Position numbers and translations under genes: made by a program. Under the pieces are notes generated by a model that made no database searches, was not told where the DNA came from, and saw only the letters and a list, made by a program, of their open reading frames with translations. From IMG/VR virus record IMGVR_UViG_3300030329_002916, positions 1 through 21,379 of that record: a stretch of 21,379 nt of DNA; one strand, 5' to 3'. The DNA comes from a virus. This document shows, piece after piece, positions 6,756 to 8,662 of the stretch (positions within the stretch are counted from its first letter, which is position 1; each line of letters starts with the position of its first letter).

Positions 6756-7442
6756 ATGACACGCAGTATTAGCAGTGATGAATATGCTCGTATGACAAGA
6801 GGTAGGATGAGAGTCCTAGTTCTCTGCGAGTATAGCGGCAGGGTGCGCGATGCGTTCCGTGCCAAGGGGCACTACGCAGTGTCCTGTGACCTTCTGCCTA
6901 GCGAGGGGGATCCCGACGCTCCTCATATGCAGGAAGACGTTCTGTCGGTGTTAAGCCACGGGGTAATGAAGCAACGTGAACCTGCTTACGATCTCGTAGT
7001 AGCGTTCCCCCCTTGCACCCACCTAGCCGTCAGCGGTGCTCGCTATTTCGCTGAGAAGCGAGCGGACGGTCGCCAACGCAAAGCCATCGAGCTCGTCCGA
7101 GCGATATGGCAATGCAACGTACCACGGGTAGCGATTGAAAACCCAGTAGGGATACTCAACTCGTATCAGCAGTGGCCTGAGTTGGCCGACATTGACTTCG
7201 AGCCAGAGCTCCCAAGGCCATACTACATAGAGCCTTGGCAGCATGGTCAGCCTACCCAAAAGAAGACAGGTATCTGGAGTCGGGGTTTGCCCAAGCTGAA
7301 GCCGTCAAACATTGTTGAGGGCAGGAAGCAGGAGGTCTGGCTCATGGGTCCAAGCAAGGACAGAGCTAAGAAGCGGTCCCTGACCCCCATCGGGATCGCT
7401 GAAGCAATGGTAGACCAATGGGGTTGGAAGGATCAAAGATGA
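6756..7442 (+). CDS. phage DNA (cytosine-5)-methyltransferase-like protein, 228 aa
   Basis: This belongs to a compact phage family usually annotated as DNA cytosine methyltransferase. ATG 6756 follows AGGAGG with a 4-base spacer. A motif I-like loop VLVLCEYSGRVRDAF (20-34) is followed by CDLLPSE, the catalytic-type FPPCTHLAVSGARYF (84-98, with the PPC Cys at 87), IENPVGIL (127-134, in place of the usual ENV), and a late GLPKLKPSN segment. A recognisable target-recognition domain and C5 motifs IX-X are missing. Base modification may therefore be relaxed in specificity or the enzyme may be atypical. It overlaps the next methyltransferase by ATGA, so both are made together. A role in protecting phage DNA is inference. 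Confidence 0.82.
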   Translation: MTRSISSDEYARMTRGRMRVLVLCEYSGRVRDAFRAKGHYAVSCDLLPSEGDPDAPHMQEDVLSVLSHGVMKQREPAYDLVVAFPPCTHLAVSGARYFAEKRADGRQRKAIELVRAIWQCNVPRVAIENPVGILNSYQQWPELADIDFEPELPRPYYIEPWQHGQPTQKKTGIWSRGLPKLKPSNIVEGRKQEVWLMGPSKDRAKKRSLTPIGIAEAMVDQWGWKDQR

Positions 7443-8662
7443 AAGTAGGAAGCTTATTCACTGGCGTGGGTGGTATTGATCTAGGTCTGGAGCGATCCGG
7501 TCACACGATTGTGTGGCAAGTTGAGCGCGACAAACAGGCCCGATCGATACTGCGTAAGCACTGGCCTGACACGCCTATCTATGATGATGTTCAAACCGTA
7601 GGAGGAACCGATGGTGGAGCAGGGAGAACTATTCTCGAAGACGTTGACCTCATCTGTGGTGGGTTCCCGTGTCAAGATCTCTCAGTTGCGGGAAACCGTA
7701 GAGGCTTGGCAGGAGAAAAATCACAGCTTTGGCATGAATTTCATCGCATACTTGAAGAGCTGCGTCCCAAGTATTGTCTGGTCGAAAATGTCCCTGGTCT
7801 ACTCTCCTCCAACCAAGGAAGGGACATGGAAGTTGTACTCAAAGGGTTGGAAGGCTTGGGCTACCAGTGGCAATACAGAGTACTTAACTCTCAATATTTT
7901 GGAGTCCCCCAACGTCGCCGTAGAGTCTTCATTGTCGGATATCTTGGAGGAGGATGTCAACCCCAAGTATTGCTTGAGCGAGAGGGCTTGTCGTGGCATC
8001 CTGCGACGAGCAGAGAAGAGGGGCAAGGCTCTACCAGAGAGTCTGGAGATCGCTCTGCAGGAGGTGGTGAAGCAAGGAGCTTCCAGTGGCAAGCCTCCCC
8101 ACAGCAAACAATGAGCATCACTGAGAACACTCCATACCTCAGCACGACCAAGGTTCCTGCAGTCTATCGAGCATCTGGGTTTTCCTCGTACAAAGAAGAC
8201 ACCGTTGCTACAACACTTAGGGCTAATCAGCAAAAGCAAACTGATACTGACTTGGTATTGCCACGAATCTTTACGCAAAACAGCAGGGACGAGGTTCGGT
8301 ATGTCAATGGTGATGGTCAACTAACAGGAGCTCTGGCCGCTCACCCAGGAGTAAAGCAACAGAACTACGTCACCACATACCACCCCTTAGCTCCCACCTT
8401 GTTTGCGAGCGGGGCTGGCACAGAACGAGTCGCGTCTGCTGGCAGTGAGGCACAATTTATTGTAGGCAACAGACCTAGACGACTAACACCGCGGGAGTGC
8501 GAACGACTGCAGGGCTTCCCCGATGATTGGACTAGGTTCGCTGACACAGGAGAGGAGATTGCGGATGGCCCACGGTATCGGATGATGGGCAATGCCGTGA
8601 CCGTGAACGTAGCTGAGTTTATCGGAAGCCAACTAAAGCAAGTGGAGGATATTGATGGATGA
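7439..8662 (+). CDS. C5 cytosine-specific DNA methyltransferase, 407 aa
   Basis: It transfers a methyl group from S-adenosylmethionine to C5 of cytosine in a specific DNA sequence. All key motifs are present: I FTGVGGIDLGLE (7-18), IV GGFPCQDLS (74-82, catalytic C78), VI ENV (116-118), VIII QRRRRVFIV (158-166), IX RLTPRECERLQGFP (348-361) and X GNAVTVNV (384-391). The long 167-345 stretch is the target-recognition region. ATG 7439 overlaps the upstream stop as ATGA. No cognate restriction enzyme is seen, so it is an orphan, anti-restriction-type enzyme. Residues 189-216 are unusually rich in Gly, Ser, Glu and Arg. Codons 58-225 also encode a second ORF in the +1 frame with its own ribosome site (7611-8114). 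Confidence 0.95.
   Translation: MKVGSLFTGVGGIDLGLERSGHTIVWQVERDKQARSILRKHWPDTPIYDDVQTVGGTDGGAGRTILEDVDLICGGFPCQDLSVAGNRRGLAGEKSQLWHEFHRILEELRPKYCLVENVPGLLSSNQGRDMEVVLKGLEGLGYQWQYRVLNSQYFGVPQRRRRVFIVGYLGGGCQPQVLLEREGLSWHPATSREEGQGSTRESGDRSAGGGEARSFQWQASPQQTMSITENTPYLSTTKVPAVYRASGFSSYKEDTVATTLRANQQKQTDTDLVLPRIFTQNSRDEVRYVNGDGQLTGALAAHPGVKQQNYVTTYHPLAPTLFASGAGTERVASAGSEAQFIVGNRPRRLTPRECERLQGFPDDWTRFADTGEEIADGPRYRMMGNAVTVNVAEFIGSQLKQVEDIDG
7611..8114 (+). CDS. overprinted 167-aa protein inside the C5 methyltransferase gene
   Basis: This ORF lies wholly within the 7439-8662 gene, in the +1 frame. AGGAGG at 7600-7605 is 5 bases before its ATG 7611, an ideal ribosome site inside a coding sequence. 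Residues 106-147 (ESSLSDILEED, KYCLSERACRGILRRAEKRG, KALPESL) match, from memory, a conserved block of stand-alone phage proteins often found next to methyltransferase genes; I could not search. In the region overlapping this block the methyltransferase frame is low-complexity, as expected if the alternative frame carries the constraint. The N-terminal half has many Ser, Thr and Lys, and no membrane segment. The function is unknown. The alternative is a chance open frame, made less likely by the ribosome site and the block. Confidence 0.6.
   Translation: MVEQGELFSKTLTSSVVGSRVKISQLRETVEAWQEKNHSFGMNFIAYLKSCVPSIVWSKMSLVYSPPTKEGTWKLYSKGWKAWATSGNTEYLTLNILESPNVAVESSLSDILEEDVNPKYCLSERACRGILRRAEKRGKALPESLEIALQEVVKQGASSGKPPHSKQ

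Follow-up and report, generated by a model that had tools for sequence, protein, structure and literature searches.

The window, meaning the whole stretch of DNA analyzed here, is a 21,379-base IMG/VR virus record in which one gene, beta, is nested in another, alpha; both genes and the features described within them lie on the + strand. Alpha (7439–8662, 407 aa) encodes a C5 cytosine-specific DNA methyltransferase, with profile matches to PF00145 (E 1.5e-71), TIGR00675 (E 4.7e-69), and phrog_116 (E 1.4e-93). Its membership of the C5 methyltransferase family (PF00145) is seen in motifs I, IV, VI, VIII, IX, and X, which are present by profile and invariant columns, and motifs I–VIII, IX, and X all lie in the alpha frame. 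Motif IV, PCQ with the catalytic Cys (7667–7675), and motif VIII, QRRRR (7910–7924), were read directly and are overlapped by beta; the P and C of the former are invariant in alignment A6 of alphas, and the latter is conserved in alignments A2 and A6. Motif IX (RRLTPRECERLQGFPD, 8477–8524) and motif X (YRMMGNAVTV, 8576–8605), both in the alpha frame, come from direct reading and the alignments.

In the AlphaFold2 prediction, the catalytic core of alpha has a pLDDT >90 and the motif IX–X helices are confident; residues 193–277 and 308–341, where the small domain is expected, have a pLDDT <50. The region expected to hold the small domain or target-recognition region (8015–8461) is variable, mostly predicted to be disordered, and without a match to solved enzymes, the best PDB matches to alpha ending at approximately residue 168–176. 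Directly upstream of alpha lies a second methyltransferase-like protein (6756–7442; phrog_757, E 2.3e-61), which has FPPCTH and ENP motifs and no Pfam match.

Beta (7611–8114) is a gene of 167 aa with an ATG start in the +1 frame, recognized by its ORF, homology, and constraint. It lies wholly within alpha and covers alpha residues 58–225. The initial annotation had described a 167-codon +1 ORF inside the 407-aa methyltransferase, spanning motif IV to motif VIII, and this is what we find, the ORF ending just beyond motif VIII. The AGGAGG that it placed 5 bases ahead of the internal ATG is there on direct reading (Shine–Dalgarno, 7600–7605), and the closest relatives, L007 and L008, have AGGAGGT with the same spacing to the beta start. 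It was also right in calling the methyltransferase frame opposite the end of beta low-complexity; this applies from residue 193 on, and the same stretch is predicted to be disordered.

Relatives of this locus number at least 580 viral-contig stretches and at least 552 bacterial-genome stretches, of which the loci examined are the top-ranked and no census. A protein search against phages, which had been suggested as a check, did return homologues (205 records by tblastn of beta), and the stops that might have been expected in the +1 frame of close relatives were absent. The frame is open in 80/80 viral loci picked by alpha alone, and beta is nested and open in frame +1 in 80/80 bacterial-genome loci, the best 80 of at least 552, which come from Acidobacteria, Bacillota, Pseudomonadota, Planctomycetes, Treponema, Pasteurellaceae, and others. 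The beta match falls in frame +1 of the annotated methyltransferase in L001–L006 and in the +1 frame of eight further phage records, which are mostly annotated as a single methyltransferase, a hypothetical protein, or nothing. Phage P1 dmt also carries a nested +1 ORF, and the P1 record offers only a “perhaps” for cytosine methylation by Dmt. Both genes are annotated in few records (MM1 and S. thermophilus phage P0094).

Stand-alone phage proteins with similar blocks had been mentioned in the initial annotation, which suggested that they were born by overprinting the methyltransferase gene. Neither idea found support, since no un-nested relative was met among approximately 260 loci by profile and 8 phage records by frame, nor any stand-alone homologue by tblastn in phages and locus searches; each resolved family member is nested in frame +1. 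The exception to nesting is Bacteroides L013, an in-frame one-chain enzyme. The only separate annotation, gp104 of Mycobacterium phage Thibault, is still in frame +1 of an HNH-interrupted methyltransferase.

A conserved methyltransferase frame itself yields apparent +1 conservation, and for this reason our controls hold the alpha protein fixed. An equally long +1 run appears in about 0.6% of synonymous-codon shuffles of the window's single alpha gene. Against a beta profile from which the window and its nearest relative were left out, the real +1 frames had a median of 182 bits in viral and 106 bits in bacterial loci, versus 45 and 21 bits for synonymous shuffles, and no shuffle equalled the real beta score in 160 loci, phage P1, or the window. 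The window's own +1 product scored 138 bits against a profile built without the window (synonymous shuffles, mean 39). The suspicion that the ORF seems conserved merely as a mirror of the methyltransferase frame does have a basis, in that methyltransferase motifs alone give synonymous shuffles 21–65 bits against beta profiles, and such mirroring explains the N-terminal similarity to the motif-IX-type nested ORFs described below. For the ORF as a whole it is refuted, and we give it practically no credence: the real scores are far above all shuffles, and +1 conservation peaks where the methyltransferase frame is least conserved.

The frame-specific test of synonymous constraint that the initial annotation called for shows a dip in alpha synonymous variation exactly over the beta ORF. 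In 98 loci, picked mainly by beta similarity, synonymous variation is 0.94–0.98 of expected over 7439–7582, drops to 0.82–0.24 over 7583–8086, and returns to 0.89–1.01 thereafter. To remove the selection bias, 80 viral loci were picked by alpha similarity alone, and in these the values are 0.96–0.99 before beta, 0.91 in the bin straddling the beta start, 0.26–0.87 within beta, and 0.92–1.3 after it, so that variation in alpha is near neutral in the region beyond beta. The lowest values (0.26–0.39) fall over the beta C-terminal block. An open +1 frame alone would lower synonymous variation only to 0.94–1.0 of expected.

Overlapping nucleic-acid elements lower synonymous variation too, and the constraint over 7583–8086 could in principle reflect an RNA structure or other such signal and no protein. 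Against this, the substitution classes, counted in 52 independent pairs of related loci, obey the genetic code of the +1 frame. Alpha-silent changes stand at 2.03x versus 0.71x for beta-silent changes in the N half, beta-silent changes at 1.69x versus 0.82x for alpha-silent changes in the C half, and changes silent in both alpha and beta at 3–6x; therefore, both frames are selected, with alpha dominant in the N half and beta in the C half. The +1 frame is, moreover, open in all relatives, and the RNA at the beta start folds no better than shuffles (z 0.79). A purely nucleic-acid signal is thus hardly conceivable as the source of the constraint.

Start signals were assessed as a Shine–Dalgarno of at least 5 nt together with a beta-frame start codon near the start of the beta domain. 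The combination occurs in 47/95 loci versus 15.3 expected and, in a second set, in 37/80 loci versus 14.5 expected, the loci being related, so that nominal significance is overstated; the other two frames of the same loci show no such excess. No internal promoter for beta was found on the + strand. With many homologues, the +1 constraint, and this excess at the start, the complete and independently started gene proposed by the initial annotation is upheld: the nested ORF is a genuine, conserved gene with its own start signals.

The +1 frame might also be reached by programmed frameshifting, giving a hybrid of motifs I–VIII fused to the beta block. This has a certain logic, as one-chain enzymes have the block after motif VIII (see below) and the hybrid would keep the canonical order. 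We nonetheless regard frameshifting as very improbable: the Shine–Dalgarno and start are enriched at the beta start, and MM1 and P0094 are annotated with a separate beta start. Separate initiation appears to fit better than frameshifting out of alpha, because the constraint begins near the beta ATG, approximately 300 nt before the C-terminal block.

A pointer to what beta does lies in that block (SLSDILEEDVNPKYCLSERACRGILRRAEKRGKA, 7929–8030), which follows the pattern SLSDILE..YCLS..ACRGILRRAEKRG. The Dmt of Bacteroides phage BK687P2 is a one-chain C5 methyltransferase in which FIRDILEDDVDEKYYVSDKALDGMINRAKK stands in frame, past motif VIII and ahead of motif IX. In a one-chain set built from 80 relatives of this Dmt, the beta profile matches in frame 0 and never in +1, and a regular expression for the block is found in frame in 51/81 one-chain enzymes and in 0/178 alphas of the nested class. 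Profile–profile alignment with hhalign, 109 betas being set against 17 one-chain enzymes, gives a probability of 95.7% and an E of 1e-8, and the hhalign comparisons together span 95.7–96% and 1e-8 to 4.5e-9; the alignment covers approximately 58 columns, its strength resting on approximately 30 of them, and pairs beta residues 79–137 with the segment directly after motif VIII. Judged by these comparisons, the beta block is the homologue of the stretch that one-chain enzymes carry after motif VIII, a stretch that alpha lacks.

AlphaFold2 with 109 sequences predicts beta with a mean pLDDT of 66.6, rising to 90–97 in residues 120–158 (7968–8084), where there are helices at 124–137 and 143–158. 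For the N-terminal approximately 100 residues, the prediction is of low confidence, and selection on them is weaker than on alpha. Foldseek of beta against the PDB returned no match below E 1, and PDB sequence searches with beta, its profile, and its block gave nothing significant. All of the eight betas tested match phrog_16143, annotated as DNA methyltransferase (window beta, E 8.9e-13); phrog_1008 matches 3/8 weakly (best E 5e-4) and was not found in the window's record.

The position of motifs IX and X relative to the two frames differs among relatives. Both are in alpha, as in the window, in 162/258 loci. In L108, the beta ORF holds the block and motif IX, with motif X remaining in alpha; in L227 and L247, it holds the block, IX, and X, and alpha stops after motif VIII; in L144, it holds the block and IX, the motif X pattern being unmatched. 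The IX–X piece is a separate downstream ORF in approximately 35 loci. Sequencing errors could account for single cases, but not for recurring classes of motif partition. The strongest case for beta as a component of the enzyme, and not a bystander, is made by this passage of essential motifs into and out of the beta frame.

Three-part loci include L003, L019, L020, L022, L026, L034, L035, L041, L051, L062, and L065. Here alpha runs out close to the beta stop, on one side of it or the other, and a further ORF downstream, frequently in the beta frame, holds motifs IX–X. Most of these loci have the IX–X ORF near a conserved KAKRAQ..DYESW..GGV.PTLN stretch, and several have a G8–G9 tract just within it.

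Our preferred reading, which we hold to be likely, is that the nested ORF is a subunit gene, its product being the beta chain of a C5 DNA methyltransferase made of two polypeptides. Translation of beta would start at a ribosome site of its own within the alpha gene. Alpha would provide the catalytic core (motifs I–VIII) together with motifs IX and X, and beta would supply in trans the post-motif-VIII segment that opens the small, DNA-recognizing domain. The two would assemble as one methyltransferase, in which beta may help to set the target sequence and without which alpha may be inactive or unspecific; the window alpha, having motifs I–X, could also be active without beta. Phage orphan methyltransferases usually protect phage DNA against host restriction, and shielding phage DNA in this way is the likely use of the present enzyme. 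We also lean, with rather less assurance, toward a broader statement: that a large phage and prophage clade of C5 methyltransferases, for the most part annotated at present as single-gene enzymes and including P1 Dmt, may be two-polypeptide enzymes with a specificity-helping block in the nested frame and motifs IX and X moved between frames.

Beta could instead be a real protein with a separate job, such as a restriction inhibitor or a methyltransferase regulator, that merely overlaps alpha. Accessory roles are common among small overprinted phage proteins, the window alpha retains every landmark motif, and the N-terminal part of beta is without a recognizable fold. Set against this are the homology of the C-terminal block to a methyltransferase segment that alpha is missing, the failure to find beta apart from the alpha gene in the loci examined, and the presence of motif IX or IX–X in the same ORF in some relatives; we judge a separate job to be unlikely. 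The initial annotation had the nested protein acting on restriction systems or on the methyltransferase itself. The link to the methyltransferase is the best reading; nothing points to restriction enzymes.

A subunit reading of such a pair is not new. In the record of Streptococcus phage MM1 1998 (DQ113772, orf13/orf14), the depositors labelled the two nested genes as subunits, alpha and beta, of a C5 methyltransferase; these roles are the depositor's naming, and the record cites no test. The layout is the same nested +1 arrangement, alpha has motifs I–X, and the homologous beta, which the window beta matches by tblastn at 5e-6, has a SLSDILEE..YFLS block. The MM1 beta stops right after the block, whereas the window beta has a longer helical tail (ACRGILRRAEKRGKALP). 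On these matches, we place the window beta in the MM1 beta/phrog_16143 family, so that its kind is already known. The Dmt of BK687P2 shares the block after motif VIII, but in frame in one polypeptide and without a nested beta.

The nearest characterized enzyme is M.EcoHK31I, of which the window is not a strict member. Lee et al. reportedly found in 1995 that M.EcoHK31I has its beta gene nested out of frame within alpha, a layout like that of the window beta. M.EcoHK31I and M.EaeI (YGGCCR) each form one C5 methyltransferase from two polypeptides, and in M.EcoHK31I motif IX sits in the small subunit (PMC3404938). The window is set apart by its motif layout, with motif IX in alpha and a post-motif-VIII block in beta; the M.EcoHK31I-like partition, with IX on the small subunit instead of alpha, is seen in relative L108. 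In M.AquI, motifs and small-domain elements are divided between two polypeptides (PMC3404938). That enzyme is split in the variable region, with IX–X in beta, whereas the window pair is nested and alpha keeps IX–X. The M.AquI-type placement of IX–X on the small subunit, absent from the window, is seen in relatives L227 and L247, and L144 has IX in the beta ORF.

ShiLan-type HNH insertions in mycobacteriophage methylases are a further case of overlapping frames among the methylase genes of actinobacteriophages, and the methyltransferases of Thibault and L100 also hold an insertion; in the ShiLan case it is an inserted homing endonuclease and no enzyme subunit, and we found no mention of a nested beta there (PMC11855218). 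In the literature searched, which lay outside REBASE and most subscription journals, we found nothing that describes the nested beta as a family of wide occurrence. Nor did we find there an earlier account of the block mapping, of how widely the pair occurs, or of motifs migrating from one frame to the other.

The present arrangement is found again in many phages, P1 among them, and in many bacterial genomes, for the most part without annotation. Single genes are what is routinely annotated, cloned, and assayed in the case of phage orphan C5 methyltransferases. Should the nested subunit be required, many such enzymes would seem inactive or mis-specified unless cloned intact, and codon-optimized synthetic versions would lose beta with alpha unchanged. 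P1, being a standard laboratory phage, makes a concrete test of the nested subunit possible. As an old and widespread overlapping pair, in which catalysis would constrain one frame and a small-domain block the other, these genes may also be a good system in which to study how overlapping genes arise.

A further nested class deserves mention (L102:2781–3515, L345:1808–2543, and L346:1622–3073), in which the beta-frame ORF has a motif-IX-like stretch (HLPRFEEWMMGWPETW in L102 and LNPRWVETLMGLPIGWT in L346). Alpha here has motifs I–VIII and a motif-X-like end, a layout resembling that reported for M.EcoHK31I, and in L345 the frames near the end appear rearranged. An N-terminal domain common to the window beta and these ORFs was considered, the match reaching E 1e-10 in a three-sequence set, and the match was rejected as a sign of homology because 9/100 synonymous shuffles of the L102 (Vibrio phage 1.236.O) alpha reach the real score.

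Individual loci also show how the pair can be interrupted or overlooked. In L016:1333–2844 (Thibault, HNH endonuclease) and L100:2322–4194, the methyltransferase holds an insertion that also leaves beta in two halves lying apart. In Streptococcus phage Javan639 (L351:2167–3354), the nested pair is intact in sequence; the deposited annotation gives the methyltransferase as the C-terminal part of alpha only, with nothing under the beta match. In Curvibacter phage PCA1 (L015:2087–3405), alpha is broken across two frames, through either decay of the gene or a sequencing error, and the beta C-terminal block is still open.
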